Part shown: positions 8,374 to 62,354 of the stretch, in pieces
Numbering within the stretch: position 1 is the first letter of the stretch
Layout of the letters: each line of letters starts with the position of its first letter
Origin: a gamma proteobacterium symbiont of Ctena orbiculata
GTDB lineage: Bacteria; Pseudomonadota; Gammaproteobacteria; Chromatiales; Chromatiaceae
Length of the DNA stretch: 64,000 nt
NCBI GenBank assembly: GCA_003058495.1
Contig: QBVC01000017.1
Coordinates: forward strand, 62,001-126,000
Reading direction: 5' to 3'
Position numbers and translations under genes: made by a program
Notes under the pieces: model-generated
Told to the model about the DNA's origin: nothing
The model's input: the letters and a program-made list of their open reading frames with translations, nothing else
Database searches by the model: none

Positions 8374-8449
8374 GGGCGCATAGCTCAGCTGGGAGAGCGC
8401 TGCAGTCACATTGCAGAGGTCACAGGTTCGATCCCTGTTGCGCCCACCA
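8374..8449 (+). tRNA. tRNA-Val(CAC)
   Basis: A 76-nt cloverleaf with encoded CCA. The acceptor is GGGCGCA/TGCGCCC, the D-arm TAGCTCAGCTGGGAGAG, the anticodon stem CTGCA/TGCAG with loop GTCACAT giving anticodon CAC (Val, codon GTG), and the T-arm CAGGTTCGATCCCTG. It lies 49 bp before the 3' end of the convergent molybdoenzyme operon. Confidence 0.96.
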
Positions 8450-8498: not shown

Positions 8499-9461
8499 CT
8501 ATGCGATGGATTGCGAGCGCTTACTGCCTGAGACCAAGACACCTCCATTGCGGCAGAAGGCCTGGCATGAATAACAGGAAACGCAAAGTGTCTGGTCAAA
8601 CATCGGGCGCTTGCCGTCTGCGCCGGAGGATTGGATGGCGCCCGTGGGGCAGACGCCGATACAACGTTTCGAGCCGCTGCAATCCGAGGTGAAGGATATC
8701 TTCCCGAAGAGCTGATCCCCGATCGTGTGCTGCTTTTCCGCCGGCGACGCCGCTATGGCCTTGAGCAACAGAGCCCGTGTCGCCGGAACCCGTTTGTTCC
8801 CGTACGGCTCCTGTTCGGTACTCTCCTGCAGGCGCCCCACCATGGCTGCGGCGGCGCTGGCCGAGCGCTCCCGGAAAAACTGGAAAAACTGGCGACGAGA
8901 AAGCGATGGTGCCTGGAATTCGAGTTCCTCCCTGTTGCGTATCAATCGAACGGCGTGACCGGGGACAAGATCCTTGAGCCGACCGTGAGCGACGGCAACG
9001 CTGTCCAGGATATGACCGTTCGCGCATTCGTTACAGGCTGTCAAGTTGACCTGCAACCCGTCAGGGAAAACCAGCGCAAATAGCACCATCAGCTCCGGAT
9101 GGGCCAGGTAACCGAGGCACGAAAGCCTCGCATGGGCGTCGCTATCGGGCTCTCCATTGCATCCGAGTACGGGCAGCGGATGCTCGGCCAGATCAGACAA
9201 AAGCCTTGGCAGGGAAAGACCCGGGGAAGTGAGTGCCGCCGTCGGGCAGACCGGGAGACACGCCAGGCATTGAGTGCAGGCGCCGCTGTCGATGTGCAGA
9301 CCTCCCCGGCCCCATGAAATGGCGTCCGTCGGGCAATTGTCCATGCACTTGCTACAGCGATTGGCAGTGCAGCGATGACGGACACACCGTGATCGGTCGA
9401 CGGTGACTGCGGTCTCGGGGGCCAGCGCCTTCAAGGCGTAGCCGCTCAGGGGCACGATCAT
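8499..9461 (-). CDS. Multi-cluster 4Fe-4S accessory protein, last gene of the molybdoenzyme operon
   Basis: 320 residues, no signal peptide, so cytoplasmic. Cysteine groups: a cluster beginning CVRHRC and ending CSKCMDNCP (26-45), CTQCLACLPVCP (62-73), CNEC mid-protein, and a C-terminal pair with CIGVCP and CVSCYSCQAFC. These could hold about three or four clusters. The layout resembles NapF-like/polyferredoxin accessory proteins found with DMSO-reductase-family enzymes, where they probably serve cofactor or Fe-S maturation. The start ATG overlaps the TorD stop by 4 bp, implying translational coupling. Function inferred only from family and position. Confidence 0.75.
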   Translation of the reverse strand: MIVPLSGYALKALAPETAVTVDRSRCVRHRCTANRCSKCMDNCPTDAISWGRGGLHIDSGACTQCLACLPVCPTAALTSPGLSLPRLLSDLAEHPLPVLGCNGEPDSDAHARLSCLGYLAHPELMVLFALVFPDGLQVNLTACNECANGHILDSVAVAHGRLKDLVPGHAVRLIRNREELEFQAPSLSRRQFFQFFRERSASAAAAMVGRLQESTEQEPYGNKRVPATRALLLKAIAASPAEKQHTIGDQLFGKISFTSDCSGSKRCIGVCPTGAIQSSGADGKRPMFDQTLCVSCYSCQAFCRNGGVLVSGSKRSQSIA

Positions 9462-10105
9462 GGGAGCGGCGCCCTGCCCGGTTGGCGCAGGGCATCGAGG
9501 ACGAAGCGCCGGGTCAGGTCAGCGAGCTTCTGGTAAAACTCTGTGCGGGAGCCCTCTTTCATAGCCTCTGTAAAAGGAACTATCCACTTACCCAGGTGTT
9601 CCTCGAGCAAGCTACGTTCCAACCCGGCCAAGCGGTTCCGCTCGTTGGATTCAGTATGGCCGTCGCCCAGGCGCGCGTTTAACAGATAGAGGAATTCCAA
9701 CTCCACAGCCACATGGTCGGGCATCTCGGTGAACTCCTCGGCGACCATGAACCCGCCTTCACGGTAGAGGGCCAGTACCGCCATGGTGGTAGCGCCCATA
9801 ACCACGTTGCCGCGGTCGAGGTAGACAGATCCGTAAGGTTTGGATCGGATATTGAAAGGACCGAGGAACAGGCGCGTGTAATCGATCCGCAGCTCCTCGC
9901 AGCCGGTCTCACGGAAACACCTACCCATGGCTTGCGCCTGAGCGGCACATTCAGCGTCAAGGGCAGACAAGGCCCGTTCCAGCTGGCCAAAGACGTCCTC
10001 ATCCAGAAAGGCCTCTTCCGGCTCGTAATAACAGGCGCTGAGCATACGGCAGGCGTCTGCCTTGGCTTGATGCCGGCGCTCTACGTCATTTTGAAGATCT
10101 GCCAT
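9458..10105 (-). CDS. TorD/DmsD-family chaperone for the molybdoenzyme
   Basis: 215 residues from the ATG at 10105, which has AGGAAG about 7 bp upstream. A longer start at 10189 would overlap the Fe-S subunit and is less favoured. The all-helical TorD family pattern is seen in the YTRLFLGPFNI segment and YGSVYLDRGNVVMG. Members bind the twin-arginine signal of a partner molybdoenzyme and help cofactor insertion before export. Its position after the catalytic and Fe-S genes, and the RR signal on the catalytic subunit, make that enzyme the obvious client. Confidence 0.85.
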   Translation of the reverse strand: MADLQNDVERRHQAKADACRMLSACYYEPEEAFLDEDVFGQLERALSALDAECAAQAQAMGRCFRETGCEELRIDYTRLFLGPFNIRSKPYGSVYLDRGNVVMGATTMAVLALYREGGFMVAEEFTEMPDHVAVELEFLYLLNARLGDGHTESNERNRLAGLERSLLEEHLGKWIVPFTEAMKEGSRTEFYQKLADLTRRFVLDALRQPGRAPLP

Positions 10106-10172
10106 GGAACTTCCTGAAAAGCGACGGGCTGGGGCCATCGACCCCAGCGCTGAATCATCTTGCATACGATCC

Positions 10173-10949
10173 TCAAACGGTAGGATCATTGTAACTTCGG
10201 ATATAGAAGACGTTGGGCTCGGTGCCTTCCTCCTCCTTTAGCCGCGTCGTTTTCCTAGCGGCGAGAATCTTGGCGATCGCACTATTGGGATCGTTTTGAT
10301 CACCGAAGATTCGGGCGTCTGCCGGGCACGCCTCGACACATGCCGGCAGTTCACCGACGCTGGTTCTGTGATAACAGAAGGTACACTTCTCGATGATACC
10401 CATGTTGCGCACCGGCGGGTAGTCGCCGGAATTGAACCTGTTCTCACTGGGTGGCGTCGCACCGGCAACCTTGGCCACCTCGGCTCCGGATGCCGTGCAC
10501 CCGGCAATGGCCGGGTCCTCTTCCAGCCACTCCGGATGGACCGGAAAATCGAACTGGTTGAAGCTGATGACGCTGTAGCTGCCACCGTCGAGGCTGGAAT
10601 CGTCCAGCTCCTGAGAACTATAAGGGCAGGCGTCCAGACAGGCCCCGCAGCCAATGCAACGTTCCTGGTTGAAAAGGGTCGTGTTGTCCGGTGCCTTGAA
10701 CATGGCTTTGGGCTCGGTGGGACACTCTTCAATACAGGGCGGCTCGCTGCAGTGATTGCACAGCACCGGCATCTGCAGATAGGTTGTGTTCGGGAACTCA
10801 CCCTCCGTCTTCATGACGAAGTCGGCCCAGTTGAAACTCTGGTTGTGTGCCCGGGCCTGGGTATTGTTTTCTGCCTTGCAGGCCAACGCACAACTGCCGC
10901 AGCCTGTGCATTGGTGCAGATCGATTACCATTCCGTATTTGACTGACAT
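10173..10949 (-). CDS. Four-cluster Fe-S electron-transfer subunit, ArrB/DmsB type
   Basis: 258 residues from ATG 10949 (GAGG upstream). An in-frame start at 11015 lies inside the previous gene. Four cysteine groups expected for four [4Fe-4S] clusters: CTGCGSCALAC, CNHCSEPPCIEECP, CIGCGACLDACP and a late CTFC with PACVEACP. The N-terminus KYGMVIDLHQCTGCG and the C-terminus VFYIRSY resemble remembered ArrB sequences of arsenate respiratory reductases. It would pass electrons to the catalytic subunit in the periplasm, co-exported on that subunit's Tat signal. 31 bp separate it from the catalytic gene. Confidence 0.9.
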   Translation of the reverse strand: MSVKYGMVIDLHQCTGCGSCALACKAENNTQARAHNQSFNWADFVMKTEGEFPNTTYLQMPVLCNHCSEPPCIEECPTEPKAMFKAPDNTTLFNQERCIGCGACLDACPYSSQELDDSSLDGGSYSVISFNQFDFPVHPEWLEEDPAIAGCTASGAEVAKVAGATPPSENRFNSGDYPPVRNMGIIEKCTFCYHRTSVGELPACVEACPADARIFGDQNDPNSAIAKILAARKTTRLKEEEGTEPNVFYIRSYNDPTV

Positions 10950-10980
10950 AGTCTTAGCCTCATAGTAATTCGGTCGATGG

Positions 10981-13539
10981 TTAGAGCTTCTGGATCTTGA
11001 CGCGCGACACAGCATGACGAGCCGTCGAGCCGCTTAGACGGTCGTAATCGGCCGGCAGCAGTTCGTTGTTGTTGAAACCGCGTGGGACATGCTTGCCGTA
11101 GTCCGCGCTGGCCAACCGGCCGTAGGCCCAGTGCCCCATGCCAAAGGTCTTGTTGACCGTGCCCGGGCGAATGCCTTCCCAGAGTCTGACTTGAATCTTC
11201 ACGCTCTTTTCCGGCGATGTTACCTCTACCCAGTCTCCGTTGTTCAGCTCCAGCTTCCGGGCATCCTTGGGGTTGATCTTGAGGACGTCCGTGTGACTGA
11301 TGTCGCCCGGATCGACCTTCTTGAACTCGTAGAATTCGTTCAAGTTCTGCGACCGGCCCTCGCGGCTCAATCGGCTGCGGCTATCCATGAAGACGAAAGG
11401 AAATTCCTTTTCGTCGCCGTGGTACTTGGCTGGTTCCCAATGGGGCACAAAGACCTGTTCGCCACGGCCTGCGTACTGAGTTACCTCCATTACCTTGTCG
11501 ATGGTGACCTCGTGCTTCTCGGCGTGCATGCCGAGCACCTTCTTCAAGGTTTCGCTGTAGAACTCGAACTTATGAGTCTCTGTTTTGAAGCCCTTCTCCC
11601 ACTTTTTCTTGAAGGGATACTGGTCGGACTGCCACAGACCGAGCTTCACGAATTCCTGCCATCCGTTGATCTTCTCGCCACTATGGTACTTGGCGGGATT
11701 CCACTGTTTCTCGGTCATGACCTTGACGACGATTTCGGCGAACTGCGCCTCGTTTTCCGCCGCCTTTCCGGTTTCAGGGTCTTTCAGTTCGGTTTGGAAG
11801 TAGTCAAACAGGTTCGGGAAGCCTTTTTCCTTCAGTTTCTTCGCCAGCATCCAGACCACTTCGGTCTCGTCGATGCGGCTGTCCCACAGCGGCTTGACCA
11901 AGGGTCGCTGCAGGCCGATATAGCTGTAACGGTTGTATTTACTCGGCACCAGGCCCCAGCGTTCGAACATATGGAACGATGCCGGCAGCACGATGTCGGC
12001 GAACTGGCTCATCTCCGAGGGATTTGTCACAATGTGCGCGAAGAAGGGAACCTTCTCCAACGCCTTTTCCCAACGGGTCGCACCGGTGCACGAAAAGGCG
12101 AAGTTGTTCCAATAACCAATGGCCACTTTGATTTCGTAAGGATCTTCGTCGAGGATCCCGTCGGCCGCGCGGTTGGTGACCACGCCGCCGCCCGGTTTTT
12201 TCTTCAGGGAAGGAAATTCCAGATAGCCCCGCTGGTCGATCTTCTTGTGTTTCACCCCTTTTTGGGCAATTTCGTCCAGGTACGGTTTGAACTTCTCCTT
12301 GTAGAGCGGAATGTGGGTATAGGGTGCCTTCATCTTCTGCAGTGTGCCGCCCTTGTTGTCGGCGCCACCCACCAGCCCGTTGAGGGCATGGGCCGCAAGG
12401 GCGCCGTAGGCGCCGCGTGGCTGCATGGCCGCGCCAGGCGCCATCCAGCACATGACGTTAGGCGCCGCTTTTCCGAAACCGACCGCAACGCGCTTGATCT
12501 GTTCGGCAGGCACCAGACAGATCTTTTCCGCCCATTCCGGAGTGCGGTCCTTCAATTCAATGTTCCACCACTTTACGATGCCATGGGTAAGTTTTTCATC
12601 AAACGCCGCCTCATCCACCGTCTTGCCGGCCTTGAAGGCGTTGACGCCGTCCTTGAAGTCACCGACGAACTCACGGCTCCATAGCCCTTCGGTCAGAATG
12701 ACATGTGCGAGTGCGAGGGCAAGCGCGCTGTCTTCCCCTGGTTTGACCGGCATCCATTCATGGGCCTTTGAAGCTGTCGCCGAAAGGCGTGGATCCACCG
12801 CGACCACGGTTGCCTGATCGAGAACCTTGCCCCATTGACGAATGGCGTTGGGAACCTGGCGGTTCGAAGCGATCGGATCGCCGCCGAAACAGATCACGTA
12901 TTTGCTGTTCTCCAGGTCATAATCGCGATAGTCCCAATAACCTTCGGTGTAGTAGGAGCCGAACTTTTCCGCCTCGGCGCAGATGGCGCTGTGGGAGATG
13001 TTGTTGGGCGAACCGAAAATCCTGGGCAGCGCGCCATAGATGACGTCGCGGCAGTAAGTATAGCGGCCGCGCATGAGCATGAACTTTTCCGTTTCGTTGT
13101 TGTTGCGCAATTCCATCATCTTGTCGGCGATGGTATCCAATGCCTCATCCCATGAGACCGGAACGAATTTGGGGTCGACGCCACGCCCCTTTTTCGGGTT
13201 GGTGCGCTTCATCGGCACCTTGATGCGGTCGGGATCGTACATCTGCCCGATGGCGAGATGGCCGCGTGGACAGACATAGCCATTACTGCTCTTGGAGAGA
13301 TGGTGGCCGCGAACCTTGACCACCCTGCCTTCTTGGACGAAGGCCTCGGCGGCGCACCAGGAGGTACAGCCCTGGCAGACGGTGGGCACCCATTCCCCCT
13401 TGCCGGGAGAGGCGGGCTTGGGCGCGGGTCCATCGGCCGGCGGATCTTCAGCCATTGCCTCGGGCGCCATGGCGGAGGTCGCGATGAGACCGCCGGTCGC
13501 GACCGAGCTCTTGATAAAATCTCTACGATTAAGTTTCAT
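10981..13539 (-). CDS. Periplasmic molybdopterin oxidoreductase, ArrA-like catalytic subunit
   Basis: 852 residues, close to ArrA length. Tat signal RRDFIKSSVATGG at residues 5-17. An N-terminal Fe-S motif C55-x2-C58-x3-C62-x27-C90 is present. C187 (SHSAICAEAEK) is the likely Mo ligand. R159-Y160 lie in RGRYT; H183, S184, K192 and Y204 surround C187. From memory of the Shewanella ArrA structure the pocket is R165, Y166, H189, S190, C193, K198 and Y210, the same spacing with an offset of six. RGRY is also the motif I recall as separating ArrA from ArxA (GRGWG). Arsenate reduction is therefore the leading hypothesis; polysulfide, thiosulfate or selenate reductases of the same branch remain possible. 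It is operonic with the Fe-S, TorD, cytochrome b and nonaheme genes. Confidence 0.88.
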   Translation of the reverse strand: MKLNRRDFIKSSVATGGLIATSAMAPEAMAEDPPADGPAPKPASPGKGEWVPTVCQGCTSWCAAEAFVQEGRVVKVRGHHLSKSSNGYVCPRGHLAIGQMYDPDRIKVPMKRTNPKKGRGVDPKFVPVSWDEALDTIADKMMELRNNNETEKFMLMRGRYTYCRDVIYGALPRIFGSPNNISHSAICAEAEKFGSYYTEGYWDYRDYDLENSKYVICFGGDPIASNRQVPNAIRQWGKVLDQATVVAVDPRLSATASKAHEWMPVKPGEDSALALALAHVILTEGLWSREFVGDFKDGVNAFKAGKTVDEAAFDEKLTHGIVKWWNIELKDRTPEWAEKICLVPAEQIKRVAVGFGKAAPNVMCWMAPGAAMQPRGAYGALAAHALNGLVGGADNKGGTLQKMKAPYTHIPLYKEKFKPYLDEIAQKGVKHKKIDQRGYLEFPSLKKKPGGGVVTNRAADGILDEDPYEIKVAIGYWNNFAFSCTGATRWEKALEKVPFFAHIVTNPSEMSQFADIVLPASFHMFERWGLVPSKYNRYSYIGLQRPLVKPLWDSRIDETEVVWMLAKKLKEKGFPNLFDYFQTELKDPETGKAAENEAQFAEIVVKVMTEKQWNPAKYHSGEKINGWQEFVKLGLWQSDQYPFKKKWEKGFKTETHKFEFYSETLKKVLGMHAEKHEVTIDKVMEVTQYAGRGEQVFVPHWEPAKYHGDEKEFPFVFMDSRSRLSREGRSQNLNEFYEFKKVDPGDISHTDVLKINPKDARKLELNNGDWVEVTSPEKSVKIQVRLWEGIRPGTVNKTFGMGHWAYGRLASADYGKHVPRGFNNNELLPADYDRLSGSTARHAVSRVKIQKL

Positions 13540-13647
13540 GCTCCTCCTCCTTATTGGCCTTTTCAGGATAATCCTGAGCAGCGATTAATGTTCAAGAATC
13601 CATGACATGATGGAGAACCAGTTCCCGGTTCTCCACCAGCCGGAAAA

Positions 13648-14271
13648 TCAGATTTTCGTTTTTTCTTCATCTTCATCTTCGACTTCTTCCCAACCGGTAA
13701 TCATCGCCTTGATATGGGCGGTAGGGGTATGTCCAGCGGTGGCCAGGTAGACATGGACGATCAGGAAGATCAACATCAGGTAGGCTGCACTGGCATGCGC
13801 CACGGCTACCCACTCCAGTGGCAGATTGGCCAGTCCGTACTCGGGCCAGACATCGTAGAACAGGTAGAGCCAGCCGCTGAACCAGATGGTCGGTCCAATC
13901 ACAAGCAACACGAACAGATAGGCGAGGCGCTGCAGCGGATTATGCTTGTGCCGCGTGGTCTGTCGGAACGGGTGCGGGGCATTGGTGAAGATACCGACCG
14001 CGTAGTACTTGATCATGGCATCGGCCTTCTCCAGGGTGGGTATATACTGCTTCCACTCCCCGGTAGTGAAGTGCCAGAAGATGGCGAAGATCCATAGGCC
14101 GACCAGGGTCCAGGCAGCGATGGTGTGGTAACCGACCACCTGCTCGAAGCCGAACAGGGAGTAGATACCGTGCACCTCAAAGCCGGTAATCAGCAGGGTA
14201 ATGATAAGTATCGCCTGGGACCAGTGCCAGAAGCGCTCGAAACGTTTGAACACATAGATTTTCTTTGGCAT
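13648..14271 (-). CDS. Cytochrome b561-type membrane subunit
   Basis: 207 residues from MPKKIYVF (ATG 14271). Four membrane helices at about 18-38, 50-72, 116-138 and 158-182. Histidines suited to haem ligation occur in RFWHWSQ, VGYHTIAAW, AIFWHFTTG and LIVHVYLA. The C-terminus is acidic and cytoplasmic. The family covers the b subunits of hydrogenases, formate dehydrogenases and thiosulfate reductases, which exchange electrons with quinone. It starts 4 bp after the nonaheme cytochrome and precedes the catalytic gene by 108 bp. It probably replaces the NrfD-type or CymA partner usual for Arr enzymes; that is inference. Confidence 0.88.
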   Translation of the reverse strand: MPKKIYVFKRFERFWHWSQAILIITLLITGFEVHGIYSLFGFEQVVGYHTIAAWTLVGLWIFAIFWHFTTGEWKQYIPTLEKADAMIKYYAVGIFTNAPHPFRQTTRHKHNPLQRLAYLFVLLVIGPTIWFSGWLYLFYDVWPEYGLANLPLEWVAVAHASAAYLMLIFLIVHVYLATAGHTPTAHIKAMITGWEEVEDEDEEKTKI

Positions 14272-14275
14272 TGCC

Positions 14276-15892
14276 CTATCCCTTCTTTTGGCTTGAGATA
14301 ACACGTATCGCGCCGTGCAGGAGCACGCCGCTCAGTGCCAGCAACGCCATGGTCAAGAACAGCTTGTCGAGTATGGGTACGCTGCCGATACCCGGCATAT
14401 AAAGACCCTCGACATCCTTCATGCGTCCCTCCCTGCTGTGACAGGACACGCAGGCGAGGGCGTCCTCGGCCGGCGCGACCATGTGATTGACGGGTATGCG
14501 CATTTCGGTTTCGACAAAGCCAACCTGGCCACTGAATTCCCGCCCTGCCACCTTCATTGCGGCATCGATGGACGCCGTCCAGTCAAAGGTCTTCCAGAAG
14601 CCATCGTTCTTCTTTCCGAACAGACTCGCCGCCACGAGGGTCGCCTGTTCCGCATCGATGGGTTGTTTCCCGCGTAACGCCTTGACAGGCCATATACGGG
14701 CCTTGGGGTCGTCAGGGCCGCCCGCGAGGGTGTTGAGCTGCACCACGCCGGCGGGATCGATGCTGTCATCCATGGTGGTGAACTCGATCCGGCCATTGAA
14801 CCAGACATATTCCGGCGTCAGGTTTTCGGCCCACTGGGCGCCACCCCGTTTGGATGAATAGATGACGCGCCCCTTATCGTCCCTTTCGACGATATCCTTG
14901 CCCTTGTCGTCGACGCGGCCGGCGGTGGACCAGTCCCAATAGGTTTTCGTCGGCCGGCCGCCGCGCGCCAGGGCGGGAATATGGCATGTCTGGCAGGCGA
15001 TCCTGTCTACGTGATTGTTTAGCTTGGGGTTGGCGCTTTCCGGGTGGGGCACCAGGCCGTGGCAGGATTCGCAGGTGGCGCGGCTGCCGGCAGCGACGTC
15101 CACGCCCTGTTCATCCTTGCTCTCGGGCTCATACTGGCTGCCCATCATCTGGTGCCATTCGGTTTTGTGGCATGTGGTGCAGCTATAACCGAGTCCGTCC
15201 TGCGCCATGTGCACATCGAGGTGGCGAGGGGCCGTCGCCAGCGATGAATCGAGGTCGCCGTGTTTGATGCCATCGCCCCCGTCGCTGTAGAAATGGCACC
15301 CCCCGCAGGATTTCACGCTTGGCTTGCCGACCTGTTTCGCCAGTTCGGACAGGTTCGGTTTGCGCACCACCTCGCGCGCCTTGGACTTGTCCCATTCCAC
15401 ATGACAGGCCGAGCACTTCACCCGCAACTGATGCCATTTATTGGACGCATAGGTCCCGGTGGTGTCATGACAGGCGAGGCAATCAACTTGCTCTTCGGCC
15501 GTGAAGTCGAAACCCTCATCCTTCCATTCGTTGCTGATATGACAGCGGGCGCAATAGGGTCCGTTCGACGATGTCGCGACCATCATGCTGTTCAGGACGT
15601 TCCGTTTGCCGACCAACTGCCCTGTCTTGTCGTTCGGAATTTCCCAGTTCCAGTGATTGGACGTATGCACCTGCTTGGCAGCAAGGTTATGGCAACCCAG
15701 GCACGCCTTCGTCAGCTCCATTCCGGACTTGAATCTCTGCTGCAAGACCTCGAACTTGGAATGGTCGGCGGTCGACAGTTGCATGGGTGCTGGAGTCACC
15801 GTATCCGGTGTTTTTCCGTAAACCCAGTTGGAACTGGCGGCAATCAAACCTATGGCAAAAAACAATCCAACGCCTACTGATTTATAGATCAT
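14276..15892 (-). CDS. Membrane-anchored nine-haem cytochrome c (octaheme tetrathionate-reductase-like)
   Basis: 538 residues from ATG 15892; an upstream TTG at 15934 is possible. An N-terminal hydrophobic segment (signal or anchor) ends near WVYG, and a C-terminal helix (DKLFLTMALLALSGVLLHG) is a second anchor. Nine CxxCH motifs are visible: CLGCH, CARCH, CLACH, CSACH, CGGCH, CTTCH, CESCH, CQTCH and CVSCH. No CxxCK is present, so the lysine-ligated catalytic haem of octaheme tetrathionate reductase is absent, favouring electron transfer over catalysis. It is the first gene of the operon and would sit on the periplasmic face. Family membership moderate, multihaem nature certain. Confidence 0.85.
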   Translation of the reverse strand: MIYKSVGVGLFFAIGLIAASSNWVYGKTPDTVTPAPMQLSTADHSKFEVLQQRFKSGMELTKACLGCHNLAAKQVHTSNHWNWEIPNDKTGQLVGKRNVLNSMMVATSSNGPYCARCHISNEWKDEGFDFTAEEQVDCLACHDTTGTYASNKWHQLRVKCSACHVEWDKSKAREVVRKPNLSELAKQVGKPSVKSCGGCHFYSDGGDGIKHGDLDSSLATAPRHLDVHMAQDGLGYSCTTCHKTEWHQMMGSQYEPESKDEQGVDVAAGSRATCESCHGLVPHPESANPKLNNHVDRIACQTCHIPALARGGRPTKTYWDWSTAGRVDDKGKDIVERDDKGRVIYSSKRGGAQWAENLTPEYVWFNGRIEFTTMDDSIDPAGVVQLNTLAGGPDDPKARIWPVKALRGKQPIDAEQATLVAASLFGKKNDGFWKTFDWTASIDAAMKVAGREFSGQVGFVETEMRIPVNHMVAPAEDALACVSCHSREGRMKDVEGLYMPGIGSVPILDKLFLTMALLALSGVLLHGAIRVISSQKKG

Positions 15893-19351: not shown

Positions 19352-19828
19352 ATGAACGTGTTGAAGATTGCCGTGATGGCAGCTGTTTTTCTGGCTTTGC
19401 CGGTTCAGGCTGACTGGCGAAATGAGGGCAGCCCTGAAGAGCAGCTCGCAAATCTGGTCAAACTGGTGCCGGGCACATCGCATTGGATGTTTGAAATCGG
19501 TGAACGCTACAAGAATCTCTACTGGGCGGCAAAACTGGATCGATGGGAGTTCGCGCAGTATCAAGTGGAGGAAATTGAAAAACTGATCAAGGTTGTGCAA
19601 CTTGCCAGACCGAAGCGTGCCGAGACCGCTCAGGAGTTTGTCGACAAGGGCCTGCCGGCAATCGCGGAAGGTGTGGCTTCAAAAGACTGGGATGTCTTCA
19701 AGCCGGCATTCGAAACGCTGCGTCAGGCATGTATAACCTGTCACGGTAAAAACGACCATTCCTTTATCTCGCTGCCGGCAGCGCCAGCGACTGCAGCAAG
19801 CCCGTCACTCAACCTGCCCAGCCCATAA
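19352..19828 (+). CDS. Periplasmic monohaem cytochrome c, C-terminal CITCH
   Basis: 158 residues with signal peptide MNVLKIAVMAAVFLALPVQA, cleaved before DWRN. AAGGGGGG precedes the ATG. A single haem site CITCH lies near residue 131, after mostly helical sequence, the arrangement of class II (cytochrome c'-like) proteins. The C-terminus is a short Ala/Ser/Pro tail. Cytochromes c' bind NO or CO; this could instead be a small electron carrier. Monocistronic and divergent from the acyltransferase. Confidence 0.82.
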   Translation: MNVLKIAVMAAVFLALPVQADWRNEGSPEEQLANLVKLVPGTSHWMFEIGERYKNLYWAAKLDRWEFAQYQVEEIEKLIKVVQLARPKRAETAQEFVDKGLPAIAEGVASKDWDVFKPAFETLRQACITCHGKNDHSFISLPAAPATAASPSLNLPSP

Positions 19829-61589: not shown

Positions 61590-62354
61590 TTGGACAAGAG
61601 ACGGACGACAGGAACCACGACTGCCGTGAATAACTCATTCGGTCTGATCATTGTCGGTGATGAGCTCCTCCTGGGTGATCGGGAGGACAGGCACCTCGCC
61701 TTTTTTCGCCGACTGCTGGGGCGCAGGGGCCAGGGCCTGCAGCGCTGCTGGGTTCTGCCCGATGAGAGGGGCAGCCTCATCGAACATTTGCGTTTTTCCA
61801 TGGCGCAGGCGTTACCCGTCTTCGTCTGCGGCGGTATCGGCGCCACCCCCGATGACTTGACCCGGGACTGCGCCGCCGCGGCTGCCGGGGTGCCGCTTAA
61901 GCCCCATCCCGAAGCGGTGGCATTGATCGAGGAGCGCTTTGGCGAAGCGGCCTACCCGACCCGCATCCAGATGGCGCTGCTGCCGCAGGGCGCCGACATC
62001 ATCCCCAATCCCTACAACCGGATTCCCGGATTCTCCCTCAATGGACACTACTTTCTACCGGGCTTTCCGGAGATGGCCTGGCCAATGGCCGAGTGGGTGA
62101 TGGAACGCTTCCACCCCGCGGCCGGGGAGCAGCTGAGCGAGCGCTCGGTGCGGGTCATCGACACCCCCGAGAGCGGACTTGTCGGGATCATGGAGCTGCT
62201 CAACGAACGCTTCCCGGCGGTCAAGCCATACAGCCTTCCCAGGCTGGGGGGCAACGGCTACGTGGAACTGGGCATACGAGGCAGGGGGGATATCTCCATG
62301 GCCTTCACAGCCCTTAAAGAGGCCCTGCAGGCGCAGCGGATCCCCTTTCGCTGA
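61590..62354 (+). CDS. CinA N-terminal / MoaB-like molybdopterin-binding domain protein
   Basis: Up to 254 residues. The TTG at 61590 or GTG at 61626 could be the start; homology begins at NNSFGLIIVGDELLLGDRED. MoCF motifs are FVCGGIGATPDDLTRDC and GFSLNGHYFLPGFPEMAWPM. It is the COG1058-type domain without the C-terminal deamidase, so a nucleotide or pterin-related role (NMN/ADP-ribose) is possible. Function not assigned. Confidence 0.85.
   Translation: MDKRRTTGTTTAVNNSFGLIIVGDELLLGDREDRHLAFFRRLLGRRGQGLQRCWVLPDERGSLIEHLRFSMAQALPVFVCGGIGATPDDLTRDCAAAAAGVPLKPHPEAVALIEERFGEAAYPTRIQMALLPQGADIIPNPYNRIPGFSLNGHYFLPGFPEMAWPMAEWVMERFHPAAGEQLSERSVRVIDTPESGLVGIMELLNERFPAVKPYSLPRLGGNGYVELGIRGRGDISMAFTALKEALQAQRIPFR

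Follow-up and report, generated by a model that had tools for sequence, protein, structure and literature searches.

A predicted arsenic oxidoreductase operon in a Chromatiaceae symbiont that combines ArrAB-type subunits with a b-type cytochrome and a nine-haem cytochrome of the OTR family

The window analysed here is a stretch of 64,000 nt (positions 62,001 to 126,000 of contig QBVC01000017.1, forward strand, GenBank assembly GCA_003058495.1) from a gammaproteobacterial symbiont of Ctena orbiculata belonging to the Chromatiaceae. At positions 8499–15892 of the window, six open reading frames (ORFs) were confirmed on the minus strand, which may encode an ArrAB-type arsenic oxidoreductase together with its own link to quinone. 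An earlier note, made from the letters alone, had taken them for one unit, and gene order, short gaps and overlaps bear this out. In the direction of transcription, the first gene (14276–15892) codes for a multihaem cytochrome c of the octahaem tetrathionate reductase (OTR) family (TIGR04315) with a hydrophobic stretch at both ends. After about 4 bp there follows a b561-type cytochrome b (PF01292; 13648–14271) and, 108 bp further, a molybdopterin catalytic subunit of the ArrA branch with a twin-arginine leader (10981–13539). An ArrB-like Fe-S subunit (10173–10949; match to PDB 6cz7_B, E 3.3e-59), the cysteines of which fit four clusters, starts about 31 bp downstream. Its gene overlaps, or nearly so, with that of a TorD/DmsD-type chaperone (9458–10189, start codon unsure; PF02613, 104 bits vs a cut-off of 22.2), and this one overlaps by 4 bp with the gene of a two-domain 4Fe-4S ferredoxin (8499–9461) recognised by hidden Markov model (HMM) scan. 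The latter had been described as a polyferredoxin. It is present in the unit in this two-domain form, no export signal was seen on it, and it is more likely a helper in maturation than a part of the electron wire.

The catalytic subunit carries the motif RGRY (13060–13071, minus strand), not XGRGWG. According to PMC6549141, (R/K)GRY is the motif of ArrA and XGRGWG that of ArxA. The best match among solved structures is Shewanella ArrA with 994 bits. A tree of 92 sequences was computed by a quick method with Shimodaira-Hasegawa-like approximate likelihood ratio (SH-aLRT) support and rooted on two distant molybdenum proteins; locus L100, where the ORF is cut to 430 amino acids, was omitted. The window protein was placed within the ArrA set, in a branch of 30 sequences which is sister to an 18-sequence branch containing the protein of Mesobacillus selenatarsenatis SF-1, itself a long row. 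Further out are a branch of Desulfobacterota and Shewanella ArrA. The ArxA sequences, recognised by the motif YGRGWG or FGRGWG together with arxB2ABCD-like neighbours, fall outside all of these. Such a placement had been set beforehand as a test of the earlier proposal, which it supports. By its sequence, the subunit is an ArrA-branch protein, and it is filed as such, not as an NCBIfam equivalog.

The pocket region was compared at twelve positions (163–166, 188–190, 193–195, 198 and 210 in Shewanella numbering); two of these, Lys198 and Tyr210, presumably have a role in the pocket. All twelve are identical to Shewanella ArrA in 9/9 of the OTR-linked ArrA sequences introduced below, while ArxA departs at 163, 166, 188, 194, 195 and 198 in four out of four. 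The OTR-linked proteins differ from Shewanella ArrA at 167, 168, 207, 209, 211 and 212, mostly in residues shared with many other proteins of the ArrA branch. Two further observations concern this protein family. Identical ArrA sequences were found in metagenome-assembled genomes (MAGs) labelled Propionivibrio and Selenomonadales (L118 and L119), so that one of the two contigs is probably misbinned, and other genera of the Chromatiaceae hold Arx-type clusters with YGRGWG or FGRGWG (L048, L179, L180, L181).

Conserved synteny, which the earlier note had asked for in relatives, was found for the first five genes: OTR, cytochrome b, ArrA, ArrB and TorD keep their order in nine genomes. These are three of the window's genus, one further member of the family, one each of Arenicellales and Magnetococcales, and three alphaproteobacteria. 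Seven of the nine have an intact ferredoxin gene; in L120 the contig ends within it, and in L049 only a decayed remnant is left. Within the genus, 3 of 22 genomes possess an ArrA of this type; they have all six genes with 81–97% identity, and the flanks of their operons differ from those in the window. From a scan of named genomes the best 80 of 568 confirmed ArrA loci were kept. OTR and cytochrome b lie directly upstream of ArrA in six of them (L049, L050, L051, L052, L053 and L120). Among the remaining 74, the pair was seen only in L119, about 8 kb from ArrA, and, in the available DNA, at none of the other 73, of which 18 have less than 2.4 kb upstream of ArrA and could therefore hide it. 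The nine OTR-linked ArrA proteins form one clade with a support of 99. Every one of the nine ArrA genes of this sub-branch has the pair directly upstream, and the OTR sequences form a matching clade, so that we rule out chance neighbours as an explanation of the linkage. The next relatives are six deltaproteobacterial loci (L054–L059) with 68–75% identity in ArrA and the gene order ArrA-ArrB-TorD-ferredoxin.

The first gene had been noted as a nonahaem cytochrome c. Its nine CXXCH motifs and membrane stretches stand, but its membership in the OTR family had been missed. By profile the protein is a member of this family (543.7 bits against a cut-off of 375; L120 543.1, L050 541.1) and it matches the Shewanella OTR structure, PDB 1sp3, with E 1.4e-93; we do not claim it to be a tetrathionate reductase. 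A novel multihaem family can thus be ruled out. With Shewanella OTR it shares eight aligned haem motifs and the positions of Asn61 and Lys153. Unlike the latter, it has a ninth haem motif, a Met in place of Cys64, the membrane stretches, a cytochrome b as partner and ArrAB encoded beside it. Asn61, Cys64 and Lys153 of Shewanella OTR are taken by us to be active-site residues. The additional motif, CSACH (15401–15415, minus strand), is located in a segment without counterpart in Shewanella OTR; the Met codon is found at 15584–15586 on the same strand.

Both changes can be followed over the family. From 49 ORFs, 34 OTR sequences remained after copies and substrings had been dropped; the sample is narrow, as its unlinked members come from relatives of the window's genome (best matches only), L119 and Shewanella. 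The OTR of L051, cut by the contig start, was excluded from the following counts. The extra CXXCH is present in 8/8 full-length Arr-linked sequences, compared with eight motifs in 25/25 unlinked ones. At the position of Cys64, all eight linked sequences have Met or Leu and all 25 unlinked ones Cys. The Asn61 position is kept wherever it can be read. In the OTR tree the Arr-linked sequences form one clade (support 100/100) on a long stem, with long-branch warnings elsewhere in the tree. The ninth haem and the loss of the Cys64 equivalent are as expected if a catalytic cytochrome had become a wire; they fit this idea without proving it.

A search of 56 relatives gave OTR homologues in 31, some of these being only partial or remote; the three genomes of the genus are the only ones among them with the Arr-linked form. 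In seven unlinked OTR regions a cytochrome b gene is adjacent in four, fused in one and not seen in two. The fusion, of 736 amino acids, belongs to the window's own genome (L150:5034–7244, G000:C24). The same genome has an eight-haem OTR with a cytochrome b beside a five-haem ExtKL-like protein (L149:5139–10627, G000:C2), and in L149 also an eight-haem protein with a weak match to hydrazine dehydrogenase. In a Geobacteraceae MAG (L123), a 501-amino-acid ORF with ten haem motifs precedes the start of ArrA by about 1.8 kb; perhaps a multihaem cytochrome was recruited there in parallel.

The cytochrome b matches PF01292 with 91.4 bits (gathering threshold 30.1) and the PhsC model PRK15006 with 118.5 bits. 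Six histidines are invariant in 10/10 aligned relatives. Four of them, His 16, 49, 159 and 173, are situated within hydrophobic stretches or at their edges and are probably the ligands of two b haems. The family match, four hydrophobic stretches and the invariant membrane histidines agree with the dihaem-type subunit that had been proposed earlier, two haems being probable.

In many Arr systems the link to quinone is the NrfD-type ArrC. A count of such genes took in hits up to about 4.5 kb from ArrA, and its queries all came from outside the window's branch. An NrfD-type gene was found near ArrA at 0/27 loci inside the 30-sequence branch, where L075, L085 and L127 have less than 1 kb upstream of ArrA, vs 48/53 outside, L100 being counted there without tree placement. 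Five outside loci were scored without such a gene; three of them (L087, L096, L107) have less than 2 kb of 3' DNA, the other two (L063, L113) are free of that limit. It thus seems that the whole branch lacks an operon-borne ArrC, and OTR with cytochrome b would be its replacement in one sub-branch. No NrfD-type ArrC or ArxC was found near the window's ArrA and XGRGWG is missing, which rules out an ordinary ArrCAB or Arx operon. That a known Arr can lack ArrC in its operon is stated in PMC2500031. Apart from these counts, a Methanoperedenaceae archaeon MAG (L112) encodes ArrA, ArrB and an NrfD-type protein.

Arsenic genes recognised by HMM adjoin Arr in three of the six delta loci: ACR3 in L054 and L055, in the latter with an ArsC-type protein (148.7 bits, under its cut-off of 174.3), and ArsJ with its GAPDH in L056. 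In L057 neighbouring ORFs, not HMM-scanned, have starts resembling the arsenic genes, and beside Arr in L058 and L059 no arsenic gene was recognised. Among the OTR-linked loci, L050 (G813) has a partial ACR3 on the opposite strand about 1.7 kb from OTR (279.6 bits vs a cut-off of 282.8, cut by the contig end), and the genome of the window has an ACR3 elsewhere. In L120 the OTR gene has a divergent neighbour that codes for a periplasmic sensor, with genes for a kinase and a sigma-54-type regulator behind it. This sensor scores 215 bits with AioX, 130 with ArrX and at most 57 with phosphonate- or phosphite-binding proteins; in a hand alignment, six of the seven residues given for the AioX pocket in PMC5908839 are conserved in it, including Cys106. 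AioX and ArxX bind arsenite and ArrX binds arsenate (PMC5908839).

From these findings the following wiring may be proposed. Electrons would run between quinone and the molybdenum site of ArrA over cytochrome b, the nine-haem cytochrome and the ArrB clusters; this path and the docking that it implies we infer from gene content, conservation, phylogeny and the changes in haem motifs and residues, which are direct observations. The dihaem cytochrome b and the membrane-held nine-haem cytochrome would stand in place of an NrfD-type ArrC or of CymA, TorD and the ferredoxin would serve maturation, and a pre-existing, stand-alone pair of OTR and cytochrome b would have been combined with ArrAB in a single sub-branch of ArrA. 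That the operon encodes an arsenic oxidoreductase of the ArrAB type linked to quinone in this way, irrespective of direction, we consider likely. The cautious proposal of the earlier note, a new wiring from quinol to the periplasm for arsenate or the same in reverse, still stands as a reading of the sequences.

Periplasmic molybdenum enzymes that reach quinone through a b-type cytochrome are familiar from PhsABC and FdnGHI. To our knowledge, no multihaem c protein bridges cytochrome b and Fe-S subunit in these, and their substrates are others. ArrAB of Shewanella ANA-3 (PDB 6cz7) resembles the window system in ArrA, ArrB, the pocket residues, the lack of ArrC in the operon and a quinone link through a multihaem c-type cytochrome, its CymA (PMC2500031). 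CymA, however, is a tetrahaem protein of the NapC/NirT type encoded elsewhere, in contrast to the cytochrome b and nine-haem OTR within the present operon. The ArrCAB and ArrABC systems of Bacillota and Desulfobacterota share the ArrA-ArrB-TorD core and belong to the same ArrA set, but possess the NrfD-type ArrC. The arsenite oxidase operon arxB2ABCD has the same types of ferredoxin, molybdenum subunit, Fe-S subunit and TorD genes (PMC6549141); it differs by XGRGWG and an NrfD-type ArxC, and its catalytic protein has only about 30% identity to that of the window. The earlier note had known of no Arr or Arx operon of such a make-up, and indeed no description of one, or of any OTR- or cytochrome-b-linked Arr operon, was found by full-text searches of openly licensed papers, nor a paper on Thiodiazotropha with arsenate. 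We rate the operon as a new form of Arr. It is a candidate solution to the quinone link of Arr, in which the changes of the cytochrome look like co-adaptation.

Several points speak against this reading. No arsenic gene was recognised in the surroundings of the operon within the window, and the AlphaFold model of the nine-haem cytochrome (mean predicted local distance difference test score, pLDDT, 36.4) was not used. The idea that the delta operons have a clear ArrX at their side had to be rejected: the sensor of L058 has its best PDB match in PtxB (78.9 bits, ArrX 66.5), and since it is slightly nearer to PtxB, an arsenic-type sensor is claimed for L120 only. Furthermore, no OTR-cytochrome b pair is present in the available DNA of L054–L059 (L059 is cut within the ferredoxin), so these six relatives manage without it. 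A donor of the NapC/CymA kind might serve Arr if OTR and cytochrome b were a separate quinol-linked reductase for tetrathionate, nitrite or similar, merely co-transcribed with it. In addition to the delta relatives without the pair, the Arr-free pairs, adjacent or fused, are in line with this, as is the Lys153 position, which is kept in all 34 OTR sequences, so that catalysis by the Arr-linked form may persist. However, a mere passenger would hardly be linked to ArrA in 9/9 of one clade and share changes found in 0/25 unlinked sequences, and we regard the separate reductase as unlikely. Still less probable appears a catalytic head for another oxyanion or a sulfur compound. An enzyme of the Arr clade in Desulfurivibrio dismutans has been tied to nitrate by proteomics (PMC12142623). 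The window proteins also stay below the NCBIfam equivalog cut-offs, with 1131.4 bits for NF041714 (cut-off 1600) and 237.7 bits for NF041715 (cut-off 450). The SF-1 protein, which we take to be the ArrA of that strain, misses the former as well (1120.5), with ArxA at 403.6, therefore this cut-off does not delimit the ArrA branch. Moreover, the ArrA-like pocket region and the arsenic genes or arsenic-type sensor beside several relatives argue for arsenic.

One pointer to the direction of the proposed oxidoreductase is the quinone of its hosts. Marker genes were searched in 16 genomes, the nine OTR-bearing ones, four of the six delta ones and three others. UbiA is over the cut-off in 8/9 OTR-bearing genomes (not in G203), MenB and MqnC in none; G953 comes near for MenB (318.8 vs 342.7) and may make menaquinone also, and G004 has an MqnC score of 305.8 vs 428.1 in an 804-amino-acid ORF. 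Among the delta genomes MqnC is over the cut-off in three of four (the fourth at 420.7) and UbiA in none. Absence over the cut-off is no proof, because G961, an ArrC-bearing member of the Desulfobacterales that likely uses menaquinone, fails with all three markers (MenB 262.1 vs 342.7, no MqnC, no UbiA). Cytochromes b of this kind usually serve a periplasmic dehydrogenase by handing its electrons on to quinone, with PhsC as a counter-example. Given the mostly ubiquinone hosts, this usual direction and the AioX-type sensor, we lean slightly to a flow from arsenite to ubiquinone, a close call at just short of an even chance; the lean had been stronger before the miss in G961 and the MenB score in G953 were taken into account. 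The ArrA-type pocket and the phylogeny stand against it and favour arsenate reduction.

With the same wiring, ubiquinol could also deliver electrons to arsenate; the enzyme would then be a respiratory arsenate reductase that has adjusted to a quinone of higher potential. The position in the ArrA branch, RGRY with the ArrA-type pocket in 9/9 and the relatives within arsenic islands are in favour, and at least one host, G953, may have menaquinone too. The quinone markers and the L120 sensor, which resembles the arsenite-binding AioX more than it does ArrX, are not, and menaquinol is argued to be necessary for a substantial driving force to arsenate (PMC2500031). This reading falls somewhat below even chances. 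More tentative again is the idea that the new wire reversed an ArrA-type head, its arsenate-reductase pocket staying unchanged, and made it an arsenite:ubiquinone oxidoreductase in bacteria that mostly have ubiquinone only. If true, either the rule that RGRY means reductase or the rule that Arr needs menaquinone breaks in the OTR-linked clade. ArrA-type catalysis would occur in genomes that mostly have ubiquinone genes only, where little driving force for arsenate respiration is argued (PMC2500031), therefore calls of direction from arrA genes may be wrong there.

Some minor features of the locus remain to be mentioned. A -24/-12 promoter pattern 5' of OTR was absent from the seven upstream regions scanned. 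A conserved hairpin between the cytochrome b and arrA genes was rejected: those of the window (-39.9 kcal/mol) and L044 (-31.8 kcal/mol), calculated without shuffle control, have no likeness at the other loci. Plasmid carriage was likewise rejected, with no match at E 1e-100 in a plasmid collection. A small ORF at 19352–19828 on the plus strand contains a single CXXCH haem motif, and the HMM scans assigned it to no family. At 8374–8449, also on the plus strand, a tRNA-Val adjoins the 3' end of the operon and is a possible landmark of insertion. Finally, the window's genus contains a second cluster with a molybdenum enzyme (L206, L207, and L208 with L209). It comprises a ten-haem cytochrome with an NrfH-like start, an Fe-S subunit, a molybdenum subunit of 841 amino acids (338 bits with the PhsA model, under the cut-off) and TorD. 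A sensor resembling AioX is encoded divergently, accompanied by a kinase and a regulator; it scores more than 200 bits in 7/8 genomes of the genus tested.

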